DNA of 64,000 bases from Daphnia pulex (taxonomy: Eukaryota; Arthropoda; Branchiopoda; Diplostraca; Daphniidae), in contig NC_060018.1 of NCBI RefSeq assembly GCF_021134715.1, positions 4,915,501 through 4,979,500 of the forward strand, read 5' to 3'. A program made the translations under genes and the position numbers. The notes under the pieces are model-generated. The model worked only from the letters and a program-made list of their open reading frames with translations, did no database searches and had not been told where the DNA came from. The first letter of the stretch is position 1; each line of letters opens with the position of its first letter. Shown here piece after piece: positions 40,481 to 56,060 of the stretch.

Positions 40481-43400
40481 TCATGATTCGAAGAAACCTC
40501 CTTTCTTTGTTAATTTACTCAATCCTATGCGACTCTTCTTCAATGGCTGCGTTGCCGACAAATCATTTTCGACATCGTCGCCGCTATTTTAAAAAATGGG
40601 TAAAAATTATTTAGTTAGTAGACTATGATGTAAAACAAAACTAATTAATTAATTACTTTCTGGAATTTTCTTTAGAAGACGGTTGACTTCTCTTACGGCC
40701 TAAATCAAACGTTTCATTCAACAAGTGGTTTTGTTCTTCTTGTATATCCCGGTTTTGGTCTTCTTTCTGTTATTAAAGAATATTTTTTTAAAAATATACT
40801 CTACATGCATAATCTGCTAAAAATCCTTACTAGAACATTTTCTGTTGCCATGTTTTTACATATTCCCGAAGCACTACATCCACAGTCAGCATTGCATGGG
40901 CGATTTTCCCTTGTGCAGGAACAACTTCTATTTTGTCAAAGAAAAAAAATGTTGTTATCAAAATAAAAAATTACAACTAAGAATGGCTTTTAAATCAATA
41001 ATCAAGTGATACCACTGTACCTGCAGCCACCAACTGTGCATGAGCAATGGGTGCGACTCAACCTCTTTCCAACTTTTTTAACTTGCTTGTCCATATCAAG
41101 CATTTTCGGTGGGGCCGCTTCGTCCTCCTCTTTGAGTTTTCTAATTCTTTTAGCCATGGGAGTGTTGCGCCATTCAGGATCGTCATCTGAATTGTAATCA
41201 TCGATTTCCTCGACATCGTCGATATCCACATGAACACGATTCGGCTTAGGCGCCACCGTTTTAGGCTTCTTCAGTTTGGAAGGAAATTGTGGGGCCCTGC
41301 AAAACAGTTCATTAAAAATTTGAAAGAATATGGATTAATCTCTTAGCTACTTCATTTCCGTAGATTCCTCCTGTTTCGGCTGCTTCAGCATTTCGATTTC
41401 GTTTAACGCCGCATGTAATTGCTCTTGTAAGGTACTGCAACGCTCAAGTTCTTCTTGTTGTATTCTCAACCGTTCCAGAAAATCCTTTTCACTTATCTGC
41501 ATTCAATTTTAATTAAGAAAAATGCACGCACACTTTCAACAAATTGCAAACAATCATACCTTATGATCTGCCGATTCCTTCAACCCAACTGGTGGAAGTT
41601 GTCTAATGAGAGTAAGCATTCTCTCCTCGTAATCGCGGCTGAGCTTGCTCATTTCCGAATGATGCTTTTGCTTCACTTGCACGCACTAAAATAGTAATTA
41701 AATTATGTACTTGAACGCTTTTAGATATGAGTAAAAATTTACCTCCAGATTATTATTGGAAAGCTCGTGTAACGCTTCATCGTGTTGACGCTGGAGATCG
41801 TCAAGCTCTCCTCTCAAATCTTCTACTTCAGAACTAAGCGAAAATGTTTCGACACGTGCCGTCACAGATTCTTCAAGCAAGATTTTCAAAGCAATCTTTA
41901 AAAGTAACAAAAATTTGTCATTAGATAATAGCTTTTTTAAGATAGTATAAGAAAACATTACTTTAGCTTCAATCATTGTCTGAAGATAATCAAATCGAGT
42001 TTTAGCTTTGTTATCTAAATCTGCAGCTGCAATTTTCTGATTTAGTTCGTTAATTTGCTCGCTACGCAAGTCTATATCGGCTGCAACATTAGCGATTTCA
42101 CTTTTGAGTGTGTTGAGGAAAGTTGCACTGTGCTCCGGATCTGCGAGTTTAGCTTCAAGTTTGGCCTGGCGTGTGGCTAAAGTTCGGCGAGACTCCTTCA
42201 AGGACTCTAAAGCCAATTCAGCGTCTTTGGTCTTAGTAAGCAAATTGAGTTCTCCCAACAGCCAACCTATAAAATTAATTGGTTGTGTCAGGATAAGTAG
42301 GAGAGAGCACGAAAAATCTAATGAATAATACCCTTGATTCGTTGATCGTTTTCGGTTGAAGTTGCTGAACTTGAGGACTTGCTGATTGATTTTGAAGAAT
42401 GTAAACAAAGTGCTTCTTTTAAACGTTTTGTAACGGCCATAGCGTCTTCCATTTTACGGCGAAGAACATTCTGTTGTTTGGCATGTAAAACTTCCATTTT
42501 CTGAAGCTGCCCTTGGCGCTTTCGGTCCTGATCCTTAAGACGAGTGACCTCGCGTTCTTTTTGCTGACGCCACGATCTGAATTTTTCGTTTTCTTCGCGC
42601 ATTTGGCGAACAAGCTTAACCTTCTGGGTTCTCATTCCTTGAATCTCGTTGTTGAATTTTTTCAACTGCTCTTCCGTTCTCTCTGCAGAAAAAAATGAAT
42701 TAGCATAACAATTACCGTTTGATAGACGTTGGGGTTGAGGGAGAACTCACGTTTAAGCTTGATTATATTTGCTTGCTCCTGGATCTTTTTCTTCAGTTCG
42801 CTAATCTGCGGTTCCAGTTCTTGGAGCCGTTTCCTTCTCTGCTCGGAAATTTTACAAGCATTGACATTACTACTAGCTTGTGCTAATAGACTAGCCAATT
42901 CATCTTTTTCTTGTTGCAAAGCAGCGATTTGATTCTCCAATTCGCTTACTGTTGCATCATAATGAGCTTTTACAACACTATACGGGCCTTGTTGGTCTTG
43001 AGTCATTTTATTGACCATGTGAACTTTTAAGGCAAGTTGGGCATTTAGTTCTTTGAGATCATTACTTAGGGCAGCTTGACGTAACGCCATATCGGCTCCC
43101 AACTTTGACAGGCGTCTACAACAAATGAAACAATTTATTAGTTGTGGGTTGCAGGGGTTGTGCAAAATTAACTATTCATACTTAGGAGATTGTGTCGATT
43201 CAGAATCGCTTTCTTTGTTTTCTTTGTCAGAATCATTGGATGTCTGCATATCGTGATTGACTTGCTCGATCTCGCCCTTTCGTTGGACATCTTGAATTTC
43301 TTCAATTTTTGACTTTAGACTCAACACTTGTTCTATGGTTTTTGTTGCGTTCAAATCGCCCGTTTCGTTAATTGTTTGATTCATAGCTCCAAGGGTTTGT

Positions 43401-45036
43401 TCAGTTTGAACCTACGTAAGCGATGCAAACACATATATTTAGTTTTTAAACGAAAGTTACTTCACTAGCTAAATACCTGCAACTCTTCGAGTCTCTGCTT
43501 CATTTGCTGGTTAGCTGCATCAGCTAAAAGTGCTTTCTCACACATGTTTGTATTTTCTTCCAACGCCAACTGTAACGCATGAGTGAGTTGAACCTTCTCT
43601 TCTTCAGCAAACTTGAGGTGCTGACGAAGTTGCTCGACTTCAGCAAAACTTGAAGTTCCATTGGATGCCAAGAGTTGTTGAACTTGGGCTCGTAGGGCCA
43701 TTACTTCTACCATTGTCGGGTCCTGATTGACAACTGGTTTGTTCTTGATTTTCCTGGCACGGTCAGCATATCGCAGGGTGCTAAGAGTTTCCTCGTAGTT
43801 GGAGTCAGCTGGACTCACACAGGCGATCATCAGTGTGTGAGAATTCCCACCTAGAAAACAATGCAGTGAACGAAGATTATTATCGACATTCTTTTTTGGG
43901 CAATTGGTTTTTATATAAAATGAAAAATATATATTTACCGAGAGAATCTTGAAGAAGGCGTGTGAGCTTAGAATCTCGGTAAGGAATGTGTCTAGGATTG
44001 TTTTCGCATAGGGCACTAATTACATTGCCAAGAGATAGCAGCCCTTTATTGATGTTTACTCCTTCAGCGAATCTTTCTCCAACCGCATGCGTTTTGCTAG
44101 CCCGTTCAGAACCAGCGAGGTCAACCAGATGAAACTTAGACGTTTTAATCGTTGACGAGCTCTCTTTGTTAATCTAAAAATAACATAAAAATGACATTAG
44201 TATGCCCTACACATCAATTGATGTTGGAAACAAACCTGATTTATTGTGAGGGTAAAAATGGCATGTGATCGACTACTCTGGTGATTCATAGCCGTTGCAC
44301 CAGTGCGTCTGTTCAAGGAACCATTTTCAAGGCACTTCAATGTTTCTTCCCAAGTGGTAACAGCTGTTTCATTTAAACCATTAATTCTTATTCCAATTTT
44401 GGGATCCTCTCGTATCTCCACTTCTTCATTTCTAGTTTTCGATAAGAGATCATAAACCTTCTCCATGTAGAGCTAAAAACAAAAATGGTAAGTTCTTGCA
44501 GTTAAAAAGAAAATTTTAAAATATCATACCTCTAAGAATGACACATTGATTTCAAACGAAAGGTTCCCATCTTCATTCATCTTTCGAAACAAATCTTTGA
44601 CAGCCCGTTGAATAATTCCACTGCTTTGTGATAAAGTTGCACTTGAAGCACTCGCTGTGTCTGCAGTTCCCATTGAGAAAGTTTTGCCCGAGCCAGTTTG
44701 GCCATAAGCAAGGATTGTTACATTATAACCTTTGAAAATTTTTCCCACAATTTTAGTGACAGCAGTGTCGTACACTTGGCTTTGACTTTCGTCTGGGCCA
44801 AAGACGTAATCGTAGGTGAAAGCTTCACTTGAACCTTTGACAGTCACTTGTGGTTGATTTGAAACTTTACTGATAAAATGTTGAGATCCTTCTGTAATCT
44901 CCTTTGGTACTAATGGCCGAATTCTTACTGCCTACATGTGTAAAAAGAATCACACAAAGTTTATTAAGAGACAAATAAGATCATTATAATACAAAATGAG
45001 ACATACCACTCGAACCGGAATCGCTTTGTCACTCAT
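40481..45036 (-). CDS. KIF4: Chromokinesin KIF4 (kinesin-4)
   Basis: This is a plus-end microtubule motor that binds chromatin and shapes the spindle midzone and mitotic chromosomes. Sixteen exons sum to 3528 nt, 1175 aa (human KIF4A is about 1230): 45007-45036, 44530-44931, 44236-44472, 43939-44161, 43477-43850, 43182-43411, 42751-43115, 42332-42682, 41962-42266, 41743-41895, 41560-41685, 41351-41496, 41021-41296, 40831-40927, 40657-40766, 40481-40583. The N-terminal motor has P-loop GQTGSGKT (87-94), switch [10 protein letters not shown], switch [10 protein letters not shown], then [18 protein letters not shown] long coiled coil follows to about residue 1000. The cysteine-rich domain is near 1062-1100 (HCSCTVGGC joined to SCSC..C..DCGC), the chromatin- and iron-sulfur-binding signature of KIF4. 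The acceptor of the fourth exon was chosen for frame: the first AG gives a stop, and the AG ten bases on restores the frame. Confidence 0.93.
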
Positions 45037-46346
45037 TCTAATTCAAGATTGCACGCAAATTCTTACATGAAACAAAGAATCAATTAAAATCGTATATAAA
45101 TAAACCTAACAAAATGACGACTTGTCAAATCATCACCAAGCATTTAAAACTGGAATTGAAATAAGAGCTTTTTTAGACTTGCAACAAACGCAACGGCTTG
45201 TCAACTGTTCTGAAATGATGGGCCTGGGCCGTTTGAAAATATCGAGCGCCCGTTGCCAGATTATTGAAATGAAAAATAGTTTTCCGTCGTCCCCATCCCC
45301 TTACTCGCCCACGCCCTCTGGCTATTCGGCTCAGTTTAATGGGTTTATGTTTAATTGTTTATTGCTTTAACGGCAAAAATTTTAACACGTAGTGAAAAAA
45401 GAATTGCCACGGACTGCTACCACAGAAATCATTCTTCTATAAACCATGAAAGAATCACATACCTTTTATTTCTTAAACTGTATAAACCACCACGTTATAC
45501 ACGAATTAAAAAAAGAGATATACCCTAATGGACGTAGAAAGATTAATAGGTTGCACGACGCTGTAAAAGTTTCTGATACATCAGAGTCATAGACGACAAC
45601 CTATGACTTATTCTGCCCCTATGGTTTCCTTTCCTACCCCTTCCAAATCACAAATCAGTCTGCACTAAGGTTTTGTTAAATGAGCACGTGGCCGCCCTCC
45701 AGCTAGTGCATCTTGGATCTTGGACGAAACGTCATTCATTCATCACTGTTAGATGCGATGAGAGCTGAGTTCGTGTTTCTCCGTATATTGGCAACTTCTT
45801 GGAAAGTATCCAAATGCCTGATTTTGAAACGAGGATACGGGATACCCACACAAAGACTCAGTGAGTTTAAATTGACGTTAACGACACAACACTTCCACAT
45901 TTTATTTTAAGGTAGGATTGAAAAATTAAGTTATATTTATTTATATTTAAGTTTGTTTGATTTTCATTGCACTAATTTATTTCCTCTCAAAGTGGTGAAA
46001 ATCAAATCTCACCTATAATTTATTTATTGGGGGAAAATAATAAGTCTTCGGCAGGGTCCCTTAGATAAAACAAATTTAGAATTTTCATATTCGCCGCCAA
46101 TTTTTCAATGATGCACCGCTGCTATTAATTTGTCATTCATATGTCTGTTTATTTGACAGCTAAACACGTCCATAAGGTCCGATGCACAATTTCTCGGAAA
46201 TGTCGGAATAATCTTGATCTTTTGACAAGCGGTCTCGTGGTAATATTAAATAACAATTTTCTGTGGATGTCGCAGTAAATCGTAATTTGTGAAAATAGGT
46301 GAAGCTGAATAATTTAAAAAAATCGAGTCCGCGGTAACTGTAAAGT
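45037..46346. other. Divergent promoter region of KIF4 and the receptor cyclase
   Basis: This is 1.3 kb between divergent starts. A plus-strand frame at 45122-45370 has no family resemblance and I reject it. I see no motif I can name with confidence. Confidence 0.5.
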
Positions 46347-49300
46347 ATGGCGAAGAAACCAGACCTGTTCTCGCCATGGAAAGCTCGTCAATTTCTTCTC
46401 GTCCAACTAGTTTTCTTGATTGTGTTCCTTCTTTGCCTGGTTCCGGTTAAAGTGTCCGGCATAAATCTTCCAATCGGATTTCTGTCTTCTCCTCAAGATC
46501 ACCTTGCGTTTCGAACAGAGCAAGACATTTATAGCGCTCTACAAATGGCCGTAAATGACGCCAATCAACAGTTATCGAAAACCCTCCAACTGGCGATTAC
46601 ATTCAAGCAAGTTAAAGTTAACCAATCTGTTACAGTTGCGCTAGAAGAGTTGTTGAAGTCAGGAGCGGTAACAGTATTTGGACATAATGACATCTGCAGC
46701 TACGTCACATCAGCATTGAAGTCGCACAATAGAATCGCCATATCCAATGTAAGTTAATGTGAAGAATTTAAATGTATATGGGAGGAAATTTACCTTTTCT
46801 ATAACGACTCAGGTCTGTGGAGACGAAAAACTGTCCAACAAAGAACTCTTCCCAGCATTCCTACGCACCCGTCCCCCTGATTCACAGGTATAATCAATAT
46901 ACGTCGGTTACAAAACCCGAATTTATTGGGTAACATTTATTTATAGATGGTCGAGTCCATGCTAATGCTGTTGCAACACTACGACTGGAATAGCATTTCC
47001 TTGGTAGTTCAAAACACGTCGAAATGGCATGCGATAGCGGACTCTTTCGAAAGAAGAATAGGAAATAAAGAGGGAATTTCTGGATACAACATAACTGTCC
47101 ATCACAAAATTCATTTTGACGATAACAGGTTGTGTTGCGCTCTTCGACAACCTTGTTGCTACGTGGCCTGGCCTCATGACATATTCGAAAAAATTAAATC
47201 CACGACCAGGGGTTCGTTTGCAACAATTTTATAGAAGATGTGAAATTAAATTAATACCTTTTTCTTTTTCTGCTTTTACAGTTTACGTATTCCTGGGAGA
47301 GACGATGTCCCTGCGGATTTTTATTCAAGCCATTGAAGATCGGGAATTGTGGCAAGCCAACCAGTATCTCGTGATCTCTTGCGATGCAGAGGCGTTTAGT
47401 ACTTTTTGGGCCACCAGTTTTCTGCAATGTAACATGTCAGATAATTTTAGTAATCAAACTTTATTAGAAATTTTTCTTTTTTTTTTTAGCCCCACGTGAA
47501 ACACAGAAAGAAATGGAAAGTGAATCTGGGAACTGGGATACTAACAGCATTCTGACTGAATCAAGGAAATTTCATTCTTATAGCAATTTGATTGAAAATT
47601 CCTGGCTACCGGATGGACCGCCGTCCTCAAAACGTTCGCCTTCCAGAGATGATTTTAGAACTAAAACTACTCCTGGAATTTTGATGGTTGTACGTAATAT
47701 TGCAAATGAGCATCTAAACACTTTCACACGACGTCTCCGTTGGTTTTCCAGCAACCAAACAGAAGAGGTACTCAACATCTTTTGATTTGCGCATATACCC
47801 TTCATTACATAGCAGTTCATTTTCAGAAAGTATCGCTACCTTCTTCCATTTATGCTGCTTATGCCTACGACGCAATCATGGTTTTAATGCAAGCTTTAAC
47901 ATTTCACACGCAAAAAATCGGTTCAAACGGAATGGATAGGAGAAAAGCGGCTTTGAACGGATCACTTCTCTATAGTACCATAATGGAAATTCAAAATTTC
48001 TCTAGTAATTTCACTCAACTGTCTTTAAAAAAAACACTCGGTGATACGTGTCAACCATGTCATACAGGTGCTCGAGGAGGATTTATTTCGTTTGATGCCA
48101 ATGGAGACACTGAAGATAGCTACATTGCCGTTGGCTCCCTAGATTTATTCTCATCGAAAACCAATTCATCGGCAGACGTCCAGAGGAATGTGATGATTCC
48201 TTTCGGCTACTTTCGTGGAACTGTAAGCTATTCGAAAATTGTAATACATAATAATTGAGGTGCATAACAATTTTGCATTTAGGTGTTCGTTCCGAGTCCG
48301 ACTGTAGAATTCAATCAGACAATTCACAATCGTCTTTCGGAAAATAATTACGCTAAAGTTACCTACGACGCTGAATTGCTCAACGACAACATTAATATTT
48401 TGATGGTTGTTGTCCATCTTCTAACCTTGGTTGCAATGGCATACACATTTACATACCAAACAAGAAAATTAGCTGCAAAAATGGACATTCTCACTATTAA
48501 AATAGCAGCATCGACCGATGCAGAACTTTGCGCCCATCTGTTAGATGCGAAACAGGTAAAAGTTAAATTTCAGTATCCAAGTGAATACTAAACAATGTTT
48601 GGCGCGTGTTCATGTAGATGCGTGTTATGAATTACAATAACCACCCCAACAAAGTCGTCGACGACTGGCGCATGAAAGTGTGGTATAAATCTTTGAAATT
48701 AAAATCTTCATGGCCAGCATTTAATTGTAAAACAATAGGAGAAATCCGCCAGGTGAGTCAGTTTCTTCTATACTTCTCAAAAATAATCCACTGGGTGATG
48801 CTTGAATTTCTTACAGATACGAACGTTTCAACACGATAATGTGAATCCATTTATATGCGCCATTATTGAGCCTGCTCGGATTTGTCTCATCACTGAATTT
48901 CAGCCACGAAACAGTCTCATGGTACGCTTGCTTAATTAACACATTACACTAGCTCTGACAAAAGTTAATTTTAGGACGTACTATCAAGCTCAAATCACGA
49001 TTTCAGCTGTAAAATGGTTGCTTCACTGGCCACTGATTTGGTTAGAGGAATGCTCTACATTCACAGCACCAAATTACGCTGTCACGGAAACTTAAAGTCA
49101 TCAAATTGCCTACTCGATTCAAACTGGACTCTTAAAATAGGGGACTTTGGTTTACAAGAATTACGCAATGCAGCAAAAGACCCGATCAAGAACGAGAGAG
49201 ATTATTACTTCAGTATGTAAAATTTGATCGTTAAAAAAGATTTCCATTCGCCTAATATTTCAAGTTTGGGATTTCAGGTTTGCTTTGGACAGCTCCCGAA

Positions 49301-50991
49301 ATTTTACGAAACGGCCCTTCACTAATCGGTACACCCGAAGGTGACGTCTATTCCTTCGCCATAATTCTGCACGAAATGGTCTGCCGCCAAGGTCCCTTCG
49401 CTATCTGCTATGACCTTGGTGATCCGATAAGTAACTCCCAATATAACTTTCCAAGTGTCGTATTCGCATTTTGATCGGATTTTTTTAATTCCCAGGAATC
49501 GTTAATAAATTAAAGCGGACCCTTAGAGGATGCCAAATCCCTATTCGACCTCCCATGGAAGTATTAAATTTGATCAACACCACAGCAATAAGAAACGTTT
49601 TCATGATGCATTATCTTGTGTAACAGACATTAGACTCGAATCTGGCCTACATGATTCCCTGTATGATTGACTGCTGGACTGAAGATCCAAATGAGCGCCC
49701 CGATTTTTCCTCGATATTTAGTTATTTTTCAAAACTGGAAGAGACTAGGTAGGGATGTACAAGTACAGTTATCAGCGCAATGTTATATTAAAGGAGTAAA
49801 AACAAATTTTCAGTCTGGACTTAAATCATACGAAAAATGTGTTGTCCGACAACGCTTGTATCGAAGAAAAGAAGCGTGCCTTAAAAGATGAAATCCAGAA
49901 AATCGACGAAGTTCTACATCGCATAATTCCCAAGTAAAATTGTGTAAAAAAAAATACTTTGCTGTTTACTAATACCCATTTTTTTCGCATAGATCTGTAG
50001 CTAACTGTTTGGCAAATGGACTTCCCGTCGAATCAGAGTTATGGGAAAACGTGACTGTTTTTGAAGCTGATTTGGTTGGATTCACCGCCATTGCATCGGA
50101 AACTACACCTCTTGGAGTGAGTCAATACATTAGGAGGATGTATGTTGCTTTCTAAAGCCTCCTTTTCTTACACACAGACCATGATTCTCTTGGACGACGT
50201 TTACACTATGTTCGATTCCATAGCCAGAGGCTACGATGTTTGCAAGATTGGAACTATCGGCGATGCCTATATTGTGGTAAACAGAGAAAAACTTGCCAAT
50301 CAGTGGTGGATGGTTGTGTTAAAGGCGTTTCCTTCACAGGTTTCAGGGATACACTCTTCACATGGGAAAAATTCCGCCGGGGAGATTGCCTCCATGGCCC
50401 TAGAGGTGGTAGAGAAAATGAAGAACTCTGGAATCGAACACCGAGGCAAGCCGCTAGTTGTGCGCATTGGCGTTCACACAGGTATTCATTTAGCAAAACT
50501 GTCACGTAGACCATGGAGTGGGTACCAATTGGGAAACTCTCAATCGCTTCAGGGTTCTATTTTTTTTAAATAAATGTAAATCGTTGCTTTAATGTTTCTC
50601 ACGTGTTATACGCTGTTCAAATTTAGGTCAGGTAGTGACGGGAGTAGTGGGCAGTTCTACGATGCCTACCTATTCTATCTTTGGCGACACGGTATCGGTA
50701 GCCTCACGAATGGAATCCACTAGCTCTGAATTGCGCATCCAGATCAGCGAAGCCAGCTATCAAGCCCTGCAGCAAATTGGGGGCTACATAACGGAGGAGC
50801 GCAATGATAGAACTGATTCTTCCGAATCGTTAAAAACTTACTGGCTGATCGGGAAAACGTTGAAGGCAGTTCAACGAAGAGAGAAGGATCGTTCGAAAGA
50901 AAAATCACTTTGTAATCGGCAATCTATTATATCTTTGACAAGTACGGATATTTTCATCGATCATTCGACAGAAGATGGCCGTGAATCGTAA
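46347..50991 (+). CDS. Receptor-type guanylate cyclase with degenerate catalytic site
   Basis: Eighteen exons sum to 3504 nt, 1167 aa: 46347-46748, 46813-46887, 46947-47211, 47282-47428, 47490-47767, 47827-48222, 48283-48555, 48618-48752, 48817-48921, 48975-49212, 49278-49430, 49496-49560, 49627-49748, 49814-49933, 49993-50116, 50178-50276, 50340-50481, 50627-50991. In order: signal-anchor segment (about 17-38), ANF-receptor-like ectodomain (TTRVYVFLGE), TM helix (about 558-579), kinase-homology domain with HGN in place of HRD ([19 protein letters not shown]), dimerisation helix ([23 protein letters not shown]), cyclase domain (about 942-1130). Metal-binding Asp951 and Asp995 and transition-state Arg1074 are kept. 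The guanine-recognition Glu is Gly991 (KIGTIGDAY), the second specificity Cys is Ser1063, and the catalytic Asn of VNxASRME is Ser1070. Activity is therefore doubtful. The TAA at 50989-50991 overlaps a GTAAGT, so further exons are possible. AATAAA lies at 51565-51570. Confidence 0.88.
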
Positions 50992-52084
50992 GTTCTGATC
51001 TAGAAAAAAAAATACCATTCTTATGTTATGTTCCTCAACACGCTGACGAGCTATTCTACGTCAGCTGTATTATGCAATTTTATGTTTGTAACTAAATCAT
51101 TTTCAACGAGCCATAGTAATATCAGGGATAAAATTAGAGATTGACGTATTAGATTCCGTCAGCGGAGTGTTCCTAGCTCGACCTCGAGTATTTTCCGCAT
51201 CGAACATTTGCAACTTCTACTATTACAAAGACGTGCTGGGTGTTGGGTATTAACTTTTCAATTTCCTGGCGACCTTCATTCAAAAGCGCAAGGGTATCTT
51301 TTGTCAGTTTCATGTTCACATCACGTTCGCTAGCGTCTATTTTTGGTCATAATGCACTTTGTTCTTTCGCTGCTGATCGTATGGCATCGTCCTCTGAATT
51401 CCTGTTTGTGTTTTTCTCAATTTCTGTCTTTCAGTCCAAGTGTATCTAAAATCCCATTCGTCGCAATAAGCACGCATGGCACGCAGTATTTCGAATTACA
51501 GCCAGCGAAAAGATAAACAAAGCTCTCAAATGACCCGTTAAGTTACCTGTTTTGTAAAAACAAAAATAAAATAAAAAGACCAGTTCAAAATTTCACTCTA
51601 CGGGTCGGTTCTATTGTGGCCAAGCGTAATAATCCTGCCACCATGCCTTATCGCGGACTGTCCTATTAATGTTTCCAAGAAACCATTTGCCAACTCTGTT
51701 CATTGTTTCCACTCGATTTTCCTATAAGCATAAACAAACCCCCTGATTTCAAAAAGAAAACTCGAAAAGCAACGTAAAACTAATGATATTAATTTGTTTT
51801 ATTTGGCCCCTTTATTCGCTTTTTCTTCCCTTGAAATGAAAAACAATTTTTATCGAAGTCAATACACCAGTCATTAAAAAAAAAGTGTTTGCCGCTAACA
51901 GCATAAACGTTATTTTTTTAAATAAATGATAAGTACATGGTGTAATCTACCTTCTGTAGCGCGCGCTAGATACCAACGAATGATTTTTCGGACGTGTCAG
52001 TAAGGCTGTTATCTCTTTGCGATATGAACACCGCAGTCTCTGTCGTTCGTCATCCACATAGTCTTTCATTTTGTGGTTTCAGTC
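50992..52084. other. 3' flank of the receptor cyclase and promoter of the first CD20-like gene
   Basis: A TATTAG acceptor near 51150 is followed by an in-frame Ser/Arg-rich stretch (FRQRSVPSSTSSIFR) that could be a further cyclase exon if the GTAAGT at 50988 is used. AATAAA at 51565-51570 is a likely poly(A) signal. No separate gene is seen. Confidence 0.45.
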
Positions 52085-52735
52085 ATGGCGTACAAGTGTT
52101 TGTTTCTTTTGTTTGAGCCTGTATTCCTCGTTTCATTGGATTTATTTTTGGGCGTAGCAAGCTTCTGTTTCCAGGTTGGCTATTTGAAATATAAATTTAT
52201 CCGTGATAATGTGATTGCACTCTTACTTTTTATAGATTGCCTTTCTTTCGACCTACCTTTTGGCAACCGACTATGATTTAGTGGGAACGGGAATTTGGGC
52301 TGGAATTGTTTTCATTGCGACTGCTGGGGTAGCATGGACAATGGATGGTAAAGTCCATAAATTGTAAGTGAACGAAAAGATTATGCTCCTTGCTCAAATT
52401 GAGGAAACAGTTTGATTTTGGTCCGTTCCAATCATAGAATTCTAGGCGCTGGACCTTGTCTTTCCTTTATCTGCGGAATTATACTGTTTAGTCTAAACGT
52501 CGCCGCACTAAGTGATCTTAACAAAGTGTGCCCTCTTGTTGTGACGTCGGCAAACATCGAGTATCACTGTAAGTTATTAAAAATTAAGCTCGTGAATGGT
52601 TGCTAAACATTTTTTAAAACTCACAAAGGCTGGAAAGAAATCGGATTCGACGTTGTACTGATGTTATGCGGTTTATTTGCCATCCCTGTTAATGCTATTC
52701 TGGTATTATTTGTGTTTAATCTAATTAAGTCTTAA
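52085..52735 (+). CDS. CD20/MS4A-like four-TM protein, copy 1
   Basis: Four exons give 151 aa: 52085-52174, 52236-52363, 52438-52568, 52629-52735. Four hydrophobic segments are predicted: FLVSLDLFLGVASF, GIWAGIVFIATAGV, FICGIILFSLNVAAL and VLMLCGLFAIPVNAIL. The G-x-W-x-G-I between TM1 and TM2 and the layout resemble the CD20-like/MS4A family; the function in arthropods is unknown. The exon phases (0, 2, 1) equal those of the next two genes, so the three are paralogues, and this one is the most diverged. I chose the ATG at 52085 over an upstream GTG. AATAAA at 52737-52742 begins one base after the stop. Confidence 0.75.
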
Positions 52736-53201
52736 TAATAAAAATTTGATTACATGTCATTCGATTGGTGTTCAACACGTGTGGACTATTTCCGTTCTGT
52801 ATTTTTTTTTTTATAATACATAATGGATTTTAAGCAAACATAACGATGCACCAGCATAACGTACTACACCAGCCCATATGGAAATAGGGTGGGAAAATTC
52901 AAACGATCCGATAACGTGATTAGAGTGAGCAACCTTATATCCTAAAGGCGACACATGTTATCCCATTCTAAGATAACAAAAAGTTGCTAGCTGCAATGAT
53001 TACACTTCCTTGCTCAAGAGATAAAACTAGGCAATACGACAGTGACTCAAGACAAAACACATAACGAATTTCTACAAGCAAAGCAATTGATTTTGGTGCG
53101 ATTAGTCATTATCATACGAAGAAGAAGAAAACGTGTGGCGATGAAATTGTTGACGTTTCCTGTCATGGACTAATTTTTCAGTTTCGCAATATTCGTTCGC
53201 C
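52736..53201. other. Intergenic between CD20-like copies 1 and 2
   Basis: It holds the copy 1 poly(A) signal AATAAA (52737-52742) and the copy 2 promoter. No other feature is seen. Confidence 0.6.
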
Positions 53202-53952
53202 ATGGTGATCCCAAATTTTTTGCTTAATACGAAAATTCACGCAAGGTCTGACGTCGGAATAGGCACCCTATATTTCATCTTTCAGGTATTCTTTTACGTT
53301 TGGTTAAATTTGTAAATACTGCAATCTGCGAAATTTAACTGGTATTGAGAACTTCAAAATATGTAGATTGCGTCACTGGCCTCAAGTCCGTCTGATGTTT
53401 ACGAACGAATTGGAATTGGTTTTTGGGGTGGGATAATTCTGGTCGTTACGGGAGTAACTTCAATCAGAGCGGCCGAAAGAGAGTCTTCTTTGTAGGCTAT
53501 AGTGATATTAATTATTATTAGTTGCAAAGTTAACCTTTCCCTTACTTTCTTATGTATTATCCACAAAAGTCTTTTAGGATGCAGTTTTATATTATCTATC
53601 TTCGCCTTGCTAGCTAGCTTTTTTGCTATGTGCGTCTTCGCCGCTTCCATTGATGAAATGAAACGTTACAATAACCCATGCACGGGTAATTTTATTGTAC
53701 CAAAGGGTCATTACATGGGTGAAACCGAATTGCCCATACCTCCGTGTTCTTACTACAGTAAGTTTTACGTTTTGTCTAAAAATTTCTTTATAACTTGCGT
53801 TACGAATTAACTGTTTGGTAGGTAGTCCTCACTTGGCGTTCGACTACATCTTACTGTTTTGCGGAGTGACTGGAATTCTTGCGAACGTTCTGTTAGCAAT
53901 CAGCATCTTCACATTGAAGAGGATCGAGAGTAGAGTGACCGTTCTACTCTAG
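53202..53952 (+). CDS. CD20/MS4A-like four-TM protein, copy 2
   Basis: Four exons give 175 aa: 53202-53285, 53367-53491, 53570-53757, 53822-53952. Features are IASLASSPSDVYERIGIGFWGG before TM2, LLGCSFILSIFALLASFFAMCVFAAS as TM3, an outer loop with NPCTGNF and PPCSYY (two likely disulfide cysteines), and TM4 ILLFCGVTGILANVLLAI. GFWGGI plus a following T/S-G matches the CD20-like signature. Exon 3 must start at AAAAG|TC (53570); the stronger-looking TTTTAG eight bases later would frameshift. It is very similar to copy 3. Confidence 0.8.
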
Positions 53953-55289
53953 TTGACAATACGAACTAAGTTTTCATTCGAATACATTTAGCGCTTACGA
54001 GTCTAAATGTCTAATACCTACAACATTGTAAATTATATCTGCACATCCCTACTCTGACCCAATAATACAATTTTTTTTTTAAGTCAGGTTGGTACTGATG
54101 CGTTCTGAGTTCTGACAGGTTAAACTACAGAAACGTCTCGGTGGCAATTATTGGAAGGTAAATTCGCAATTCGTTTATAATATTCAATAAACACTTATTC
54201 GAATTCATTATACCAGCGTTTGTTATCTTTCGGAACAGCACGATCAGAAAAGTTTTGGGTTGAGAAGGAGAATATTTTCGCATTCTAAAGGCACGTTTCT
54301 TGGCAAACAGGAAACTATGGATACTTAAACTGATTCTATTTCGAGACTGTTGTTTTAAAGGCAAATATTAAAGCTAACAGTAGGTATGGGCTAATTGAAA
54401 GATTAAATGAATCACGACTTACCGCGCAGTTCCAGACGTCCGTGAGAATCGAGGGTGGTTGCTTGGCACTCCGTCCACACGAACCTTTTACACACTCCGT
54501 CCATTACAAACACACACAGTCAGATTTGAAAAATTTAACAGAATATTGAGCTCAACAATAAATTAAACCTGATGAAGAAATTCACCTTCCCATAGACCAC
54601 GAGACAGACTACTACCAGGTGTGCATACCCTTCCATAATGGCGGATGTTTCTGGAAAATATTTCTAAGCAATAAGGAAAGGAAGAGTCAGGAAAACTGGA
54701 ACAAAGAAAGATACACAGGGAAGGGGTCGGAAGAGAACATAGAGAGAGAAAAAGCGTTAGAACCCCCATCCCTGAAATTAGTAATAAAGTATTGCACTAA
54801 AGTAGCGTAATAAAATATGTTGTAACGTATTGATGCATCATAATGTATTCCCACAATTGTGACGTTAATTTCTTTGACCAAGAGCACTTAAAGGAAGAGA
54901 AAGAATGCGTTAGAATTAGAAATGACCGTATTACCAAGTTTTGAAATTTAAGGTACTGTGTATACATGTATACAATATACATAAGGTAAGGGACCCGGGG
55001 ACAACTCAAACGAACTGCTGATAACAGCATGCGCAATCGATTTACCAAAGAGATAAGCAAAACCCCGACGGGATAATATATGTATAAGAAATGCGCCATA
55101 GTTACTCATAAGAACGCCATTTCTTTTCAAAGATAACGAACAACGCTAGGTTAAAAAGATTATGCTGAGGGGCAAGGAACAACACTGGCGAGCGTTCATT
55201 CCATAAAGAAAATTCAATCGACCGGCGAACTGTGGATTAGTCCCTGTTGAATTTCATTTGCAGTTTATATTTGTTTTAAATCATTCATC
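53953..55289. other. Intergenic between CD20-like copies 2 and 3, with a candidate exon
   Basis: This 1.3 kb spacer contains a minus-strand candidate first exon at 54423-54504 (listed separately). Other open frames are short and unconvincing. The copy 3 promoter should lie just left of 55290. Confidence 0.5.
54423..54504 (-). CDS. Candidate orphan first exon, unidentified
   Basis: A minus-strand ATG opens 27 codons, MDGVCKRFVWTECQAT then TLDSHGRLELR, up to a strong GTAAGT donor in phase 1. Unspliced it would stop after 30 codons. The composition is protein-like, but no acceptor downstream gives a long continuation before a stop. It may be a fragment of a gene left by duplication, or chance. 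Confidence 0.25.
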
Positions 55290-56060
55290 ATGTCAACAGT
55301 GATTCCGGCCTCTTTGCTTAACATGAAATTTCACTCAATTACCAATCTTGCACTGGGAATTATTTGTTTCATTTTTCAGGTTGGTTTTATCTTATGTTAC
55401 ATTAATGTGTCTGGTTCGTTTTTAAACCGGAATTTCATTTTTTAAACAGATTGCTGCCTTGGCCTCGAGCCCGCACGATGTTTACGAACAAATTGGAATT
55501 GGTTTTTGGGGTGGAATAATCCTGATCTTAACAGCATTAGCTGCGTATAAATCTTCAACAGGTGAAGCACCATTGTACGTGAGGAATTCTTAATTCACTG
55601 GCTTGAAATTCGTTCAACTAATATAATGTCAGAAATTTTGTCTTACTTGTTATTAAAGTCTTTTAGGGTGCAGTTTCGTGCTGTCCATCTTTGCCTTCTT
55701 TGTCAGCTTTTCCATCATGTGCATCTTCGCTGCTTCAATTGATGAAATGAAACGTTACAGTGGTAATCCATGCACGGGTAACTTTACTATACCAGCTAAT
55801 ACTCCGCAACAGAACTGCACTATAGGCGCGACATATCCTATTCCTCCTTGCTCTTACTACAGTAAATTTTTGTTTTATGATGGATTTTTAAAAAATTTCA
55901 ATTAAACAGCACTTGTAATTTGTTGAATATAGGTAGCGCTCACTTGGGTTTTGACTCGATCCTTCTGATTTGTGGAATTATTGGCATTCCAGTGAATATT
56001 CTCTTGGTGATGGGTGTTATTACAGTTTACAATCCTGCACCGGCAGCCCCTGCCACATAA
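55290..56060 (+). CDS. CD20/MS4A-like four-TM protein, copy 3
   Basis: Four exons give 181 aa: 55290-55379, 55450-55574, 55659-55861, 55933-56060. It shares long near-identical segments with copy 2: IGIGFWGGIIL, AASIDEMKRY, NPCTGNF, PPCSYYS. The outer loop is about seven residues longer and has an extra Cys (QQNCTIG). TM4 is ILLICGIIGIPVNILLVMGV, and the C-terminus ends in an Ala/Pro tail. The start ATCATCATGTC fits weakly. Exon 3 uses the same AAAG|TC acceptor followed by TTTTAG as copy 2. Confidence 0.8.

Follow-up and report, generated by a model that had tools for sequence, protein, structure and literature searches.

The window, by which we mean the whole 64,000-nucleotide stretch of Daphnia pulex DNA analysed here (G000:C2:4915501-4979500), belongs to a genome of 133 Mb in 13 contigs. 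It carries a receptor guanylate cyclase-like gene on the forward strand (positions 46347-50991 of the window), with 18 intact exons joined by GT-AG splicing, 1167 residues and a single terminal stop. The initial annotation had described eighteen clean in-frame exons, and the splice model agrees with it (18 exons, 1167 codons, one stop at the end). A separate spliced alignment that used the NPR1 cyclase domain as query agrees on all five exon boundaries in that part of the gene. In the protein, Pfam finds ANF_receptor at residues 62-485, a kinase-like domain at 630-876 and Guanylate_cyc at 938-1121, each above its cut-off. The features of the gene are:

46347-50991, forward strand: receptor guanylate cyclase-like gene, 18 exons, 1167 residues (splice model, one terminal stop)
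46347-48222, forward strand: exons 1-6, N-terminal hydrophobic stretch (residues 16-34, hydropathy) and ANF_receptor ligand-binding domain (residues 62-485, Pfam E=6e-23)
48283-48555, forward strand: exon 7, one transmembrane segment at residues ~560-578 (hydropathy 2.11 over 19 residues)
48618-49748, forward strand: exons 8-13, kinase homology domain, residues ~628-876 (Pfam PK_Tyr_Ser-Thr E=1.1e-32, Pkinase E=1.1e-28)
49814-49933, forward strand: exon 14, linker/dimerisation helix, diverged from the LVxERTxxLxxEK motif seen in canonical paralogues (alignment)
49993-50856, forward strand: exons 15-18, cyclase domain, Pfam residues 938-1121 (PF00211 E=3.7e-46; spliced alignment)

An ANF_receptor ectodomain, one transmembrane segment, a kinase homology domain and a C-terminal cyclase domain make up the layout of the animal receptor guanylate cyclases. 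We take the gene to be a receptor guanylate cyclase by architecture and descent, although not as a self-sufficient enzyme. Its TAA stop lies inside a consensus splice donor (TCGTAAGT, positions 50986-50993), so a longer-tailed spliced form is possible. The neighbouring genes were identified by eye. A kinesin-like gene, recognised from its reading frames, occupies positions ~41700-45037 on the reverse strand, head to head with the cyclase gene and about 1.3 kb from it. At positions ~52083-55905 there are short, mutually similar genes with several hydrophobic stretches, apparently a small tandem family of membrane proteins.

As described by Winger et al. 2008 (PMC2576301), the catalytic residues of class III cyclases are shared between two monomers: monomer A provides two metal-binding Asp and one triphosphate-binding Arg, and monomer B provides the ribose Asn, the transition-state Arg and a triphosphate-binding Lys, while guanine is read by one Glu and one Cys. 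Where that paper describes the loop distorted in each monomer, Glu523 is labelled 'A' (PMC2576301). The corresponding sites in the window protein are:

50069-50071, forward strand: Asp951, first metal ligand, kept (site table)
50250-50252, forward strand: Gly991 (GGA) in place of the guanine-reading Glu (site table)
50262-50264, forward strand: Asp995, second metal ligand, kept (site table)
50674-50676, forward strand: Ser1063 (TCT) in place of the guanine-reading Cys (site table)
50695-50697, forward strand: Ser1070 (TCG) in place of the ribose-orienting Asn (site table)
50707-50709, forward strand: Arg1074, transition-state Arg, kept (site table)

In adenylate cyclase, the Lys and Asp equivalent to the guanine-reading Glu and Cys are both in C2, and, following the adenylate cyclase structures, we assume that the Glu and Cys belong to monomer B. 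The initial annotation had reported that Gly991, Ser1063 and Ser1070 replace Glu, Cys and Asn and that both metal Asp and the Arg are kept, and each of these residues, with its codon and number, is as it said. Its count of three missing active-site residues was too low: all three losses are real, and it overlooked a fourth, the triphosphate-binding Lys of the KGKG loop (RTDSSES, starting at residue 1108), as well as a change of MPRYC to MPTYS. A simple read error was considered as the cause of Ser1070 and rejected, because going from Asn (AAY) to Ser TCG takes three base differences.

The A (metal) side of the window protein is intact, with Asp951, Asp995, Arg1041 and the P-loop GFT, while on the B side Glu, Cys, Asn and Lys are gone and Arg1074 is all that is left of the five named residues. 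All four lesions thus sit on one half of the class III site, the C2/beta half, with the other half intact. The protein has neither the complete set of Asp, Asp, Glu, Cys, Asn, Arg and Lys expected of a self-sufficient subunit nor the Lys/Asp base-reading pair of adenylate cyclase, as it has Gly and Ser at those two positions.

A Pfam cyclase profile search of the genome gave at least 68 matches (77 of 77 candidates scored). We took the 26 regions that span the matches outside the window and used spliced alignment to rebuild the cyclase domains in them. These include six different canonical receptor cyclases (L009, L012 with its identical copy L013, L014, L016, L017 and L021), and both Asp, Glu, Cys, Asn and Arg are retained in all six; the Lys is not resolved in L014, nor in L023. 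Among the Pfam-found domains that were rebuilt, L029 is the only altered intact receptor cyclase besides the window gene. The soluble cyclases are altered in several ways. L023 (alpha-like) keeps the metal side, with Asn and Arg changed and Glu and Cys retained, and in L022 (beta-like) the base side is retained and the first Asp and triphosphate Arg are missing. Both metal Asp are absent from L025 and L026, which retain Glu, Cys, Asn, Arg and Lys; we take these two to be Gyc89D-like and L034 to be Gyc88E-like, and L024-L026 and L034 are likely partners. The guanylate cyclase table and trees leave out the adenylyl cyclase-type domains (L010, L011, L015, L018-L020, L027, L028, L031, L032), L033, and L030, which has stops. 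L013, being identical to L012, is absent from the tree. The L024 model fuses exons of tandem genes; it is present in the site table and the cyclase tree and is not counted as evidence.

The survey also turned up features of the family that stand apart from the window gene. L024-L026 (G000:C4:6597159-6616595, reverse strand) are a cluster in which at least three soluble-type cyclase domains follow one another in tandem, without the metal Asp and with the base side kept. L012 (G000:C2:11406861-11407454) and L013 (11438525-11439118) encode identical cyclase-domain proteins about 31.7 kb apart, either a recent duplication or a duplication in the assembly. L030 (G000:C8:7154781-7155346, forward strand) is a decayed receptor cyclase copy near L009/L012 in sequence, with in-frame stops and a metal motif that is unreadable in the model. 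Degenerate-looking adenylyl cyclase-like domains are seen in L018, L031 and L032, with stops in the L032 model and incomplete or odd models for L018 and L031.

L029 (also numbered L035; G000:C1:4012309-4014775, reverse strand) has 11 exons and, from a start codon of our choosing, 584 residues. It has a transmembrane segment (hydrophobic stretch at residues 17-35, hydropathy), a kinase-like domain and a cyclase domain, and neither ANF_receptor nor any other detectable ectodomain. Its lesions are on the metal side: the first Asp is Asn403 (AAT), G and T of the P-loop are N and R, and the G preceding the second Asp is K. It retains Asp447 (the second metal Asp), Glu443, Cys514, Asn521, Arg525 and Lys564, the last of these on a TTTTAG acceptor that was judged the better of two. 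When five paralogue ectodomains were spliced-aligned to the 6.65 kb upstream of L029, they scored 46-68, which is background (47-70 in 15 shuffles, 56-65 on the opposite strand); as positive controls, the window's ectodomain scored 163-301 against three paralogue regions. A genome search with Pfam ANF_receptor is uninformative on this point, because it missed the window gene's own ectodomain too. From these alignments L029 seems to lack a ligand-binding ectodomain and to have a membrane anchor only. An opposite-strand gene with RNA-binding sequence (NONO-like, by eye) starts at most about 1 kb upstream of L029.

The lesions of the two proteins are reciprocal. We compared both with the canonical cyclases at 17 nucleotide-contacting positions, nine on the metal (A) side and eight on the base (B) side. 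Nine of the 17 were taken, as our assumption, from adenylate cyclase structures, and the other eight are those named in Winger 2008. The window gene is changed at 1/9 positions on the A side (Ile to Leu) and 5/8 on the B side; for L029 the counts are 5/9 and 0/8. In a test devised post hoc, with the pattern already seen, opposite skews this strong arise by chance in either orientation with probability 0.0018 for all changes and 0.0031 for non-conservative changes only, and with only the eight Winger 2008 residues the value is a marginal 0.054. As a guide to real heterodimer halves, the genome's own soluble cyclases show the same kind of split: L023 has one conservative change of nine on the A side and two changes on the B side (Lys not resolved), L022 has 4/9 and 0/8, and L025 and L026 have 6/9 and 7/9 on the A side and 2/8 each, both conservative, on the B side. 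One feature of L029 counts against a heterodimer: only one of its two metal ligands has been lost, Asp447 being kept.

Whole-domain similarity shows a comparable separation in two of three comparisons. The phmmer bit score against adenylate cyclase C1 (1cjk_A) minus that against C2 (1azs_B) is +10.1 for the window domain and -29.4 for L029, both outside the range of the canonical paralogues and at opposite ends of it (L017 -2.0, L009 -2.4, L016 -11.4, L021 -13.1; four of the six, L012 and L014 being left out). With the alpha and beta subunits of Manduca soluble guanylate cyclase (6pas), the window gene (+38.0) and L029 (-4.8) are again opposite extremes, the canonical cyclases lying between +10.4 and +27.7. 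The human subunits (6jt0) give no separation, with +15.6 for the window gene, +13.0 for L029 and +5.9 to +20.9 for the canonical cyclases. We also asked whether the linker helices of the window protein and L029 carry complementary charges, and dropped this as evidence (P 0.42 and 0.19 against shuffles for two scores); of a 5 x 5 matrix, theirs is the only pair that comes out negative, that is attractive, whichever score is used, which is not significant. No ciliary X-box (RFX) site, strict or loose, occurs in the 900 bases upstream of either gene, which says little because the chance expectation is under one.

The ancestry of the two genes is recorded in their introns. Of 13 cyclase domains compared, those of the window gene, L017 and L029 combine introns at 14.2, 56.0, 89.0 and 137.1 (NPR1-domain numbering), and the other ten do not. 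The intron at 89.0 is by itself exclusive to these three genes, while those at 14.2, 56.0 and 137.1 occur singly in paralogues; L021, some of whose introns are doubtful, has one modelled at 88.0, one residue off. In the cyclase tree, the same three genes form a modestly supported group of their own (94.1/70), and L029 pairs with L017 and not with the window gene, without support (0/46). The window gene is not a soluble guanylate cyclase alpha: it groups with the receptor cyclases and has an ectodomain and a transmembrane segment. In a tree of the kinase-like and cyclase domains together, the window gene and L029 split from four canonical paralogues in 88% of 200 bootstraps, a grouping that could be long-branch attraction, since both genes are on long branches (1.06 for the window gene and 1.38 for L029; 0.96 for the window gene in the cyclase-only tree). 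The introns are the firmer evidence, and point to a common origin of the window gene, L017 and L029, not to which two of them are closest. In the simplest history, a canonical gene resembling L017 would have been duplicated, and the copies would then have undergone reciprocal loss.

Both genes show coding constraint. We inferred an ancestor for the kinase-like and cyclase domains from the sites at which canonical L036 (which is L017) and L039 (which is L009) agree. The window gene differs from it at 115/326, 90/377 and 128/202 sites of codon positions 1, 2 and 3 (0.35, 0.24 and 0.63), and L029 at 130/319, 96/368 and 141/198 (0.41, 0.26 and 0.71), a comparison that retains some bias, as there are few conserved third positions and these are partly saturated. 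Neutral decay is expected to proceed at equal rates at the three codon positions. In simulations, neutral change at 0.05 per site gave a mean of 7.3 stops and no run of 300 without one, and the 1167 codons of the window gene include no internal stop. That the window gene is neutral debris is rejected, because it has no internal stop and its codon-position differences are skewed. Of the 84 columns invariant in the canonical cyclases, the window gene and L029 keep 56 each and the soluble alpha 55; at 75 variable columns, the window gene is identical to L017 in 24 and L029 in 19.

Taking these results together, we consider it likely on balance that the window gene encodes the metal-binding (C1/alpha-like) half of an obligate heterodimeric receptor guanylate cyclase, with L029 as the most likely partner. 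A homodimer of the window protein should have no working site, because its guanine/ribose/triphosphate half has lost Glu, Cys, Asn and Lys, and a homodimer of L029 would likewise be dead or nearly so. A dimer of the two would have one complete site, made of Asp951, Asp995 and Arg1041 of the window protein and Glu, Cys, Asn, Arg and Lys of L029, and a second, mirror-image site that would be dead. Since the window protein has an ectodomain and L029 seemingly a membrane anchor only, the former would sense the ligand and so place the pair under ligand control, and the latter would supply the binding of guanine. Output of cGMP, the expected product, would then need both genes to be expressed in one cell.

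Other partners and other fates have to be weighed against this heterodimer. The half-enzyme might pair with a canonical receptor cyclase such as L017, instead of or besides L029, and form a one-site receptor; L029 too might take a canonical partner. L017 is the one canonical gene that shares the intron pattern, and of three regions compared with the window's ectodomain its own scores highest (301 versus 163 and 175); such a pairing leaves the reciprocal decay of L029 unexplained, and we find it unlikely. We give similarly little weight to a pseudocyclase, a signalling-dead receptor that would act as a decoy, a scaffold or a dominant-negative partner. A homodimer from which four residues of one half-site are gone should indeed be dead, but the metal-side residues, which are useless in a pseudoenzyme, survive, with eight of nine identical and the ninth conservative.

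The long branch of the window gene (0.96 with the cyclase domain alone, 1.06 with both domains) might suggest a gene under relaxed constraint that is being lost. We hold this to be very improbable, given the strong codon-position skew and the 1167 codons free of internal stops where simulation puts 7.3 on average; a decayed receptor cyclase copy in this genome, L030, does carry stops. Least credible of all is a cyclase with an altered choice of nucleotide. Both base-reading residues are changed, as this would require, but Gly/Ser fits neither the Glu/Cys pair of guanylate cyclases nor the Lys/Asp pair of adenylate cyclases, and this half of the site is also without its ribose Asn and triphosphate Lys. 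The initial annotation had left the choice between a pseudocyclase, a heterodimer partner and altered nucleotide choice; the last of these is now disfavoured, and the heterodimer partner is favoured because, at the sites examined, every non-conservative lesion is on one half-site and there is a related receptor cyclase with the reciprocal lesions.

The nearest precedent for the window gene and L029 is the ODR-1/DAF-11 pair of C. elegans. That species has 27 receptor cyclases (PMC5225109), a number of which are described as lacking key GTP- and Mg-binding residues and are proposed to be obligate heterodimers (PMC8045692; PMC5225109). For ODR-1/DAF-11, fusions of both intracellular domains are reported to have restored function where single ones did not; the same review gives clues to homodimer action as well, and describes formal proof of a native heterodimer as awaited (PMC8045692). 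As would be expected of a pair of that kind, the window gene and L029 are two receptor cyclases of one genome with complementary lost residues. The pairs differ in that ODR-1/DAF-11 is a nematode system and ODR-1 has an ectodomain, albeit one described as dispensable (PMC5225109), whereas L029 seems to have none. The fungal NeoR/RGC rhodopsin cyclases are described as obligate heterodimeric membrane guanylyl cyclases too, with RGC1 and RGC2 of NeoR-type pairs retaining all relevant residues (PMC8815786). Membrane adenylyl cyclase is described as a C1/C2 pseudo-heterodimer in which one site works and the other is degenerate (PMC8815786); bit scores put the window domain on the C1 side and L029 on the C2 side, and the likeness ends with adenylyl cyclase having both halves in one polypeptide and being adenine-specific.

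The same division of labour is found in alpha-1/beta-1 soluble guanylate cyclase, in which alpha keeps the metal side and beta the base side (here L023 and L022). Soluble guanylate cyclase is, as its name says, soluble, and it is haem-regulated; it forms a separate group in the tree, and alpha-like L023 keeps the Glu and Cys that the window protein has lost. The atypical soluble cyclases Gyc88E/Gyc89D (presumably L034 and L025-L026 here) offer a further parallel, L025 and L026 being without both metal Asp and with the base side kept, and differ in not being receptor-type in the tree. A survey of five Diptera describes the receptor cyclases as conserved homodimeric proteins (PMC3863949), and among the matches listed in the open-access literature there was no arthropod heterodimeric (split) receptor cyclase. 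We therefore put forward only tentatively, as a possibility that falls somewhat short of an even one, that the two genes form a crustacean split receptor cyclase that is coincidence-gated, with a sensor and metal half on one gene and a sensorless base-binding half on the other, and that it evolved within arthropods, separately from the nematode pair, when two duplicates underwent reciprocal loss.

The receptor guanylate cyclases of animals are for the most part regarded as homodimers. If the proposal is true, the split-site solution would also have arisen outside nematodes, and the two genes would offer a two-gene test of how obligate heterodimers evolve through duplication and reciprocal loss. 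It would also follow that attempts to deorphanise the window receptor or L029 singly must fail, because neither would signal without its partner.
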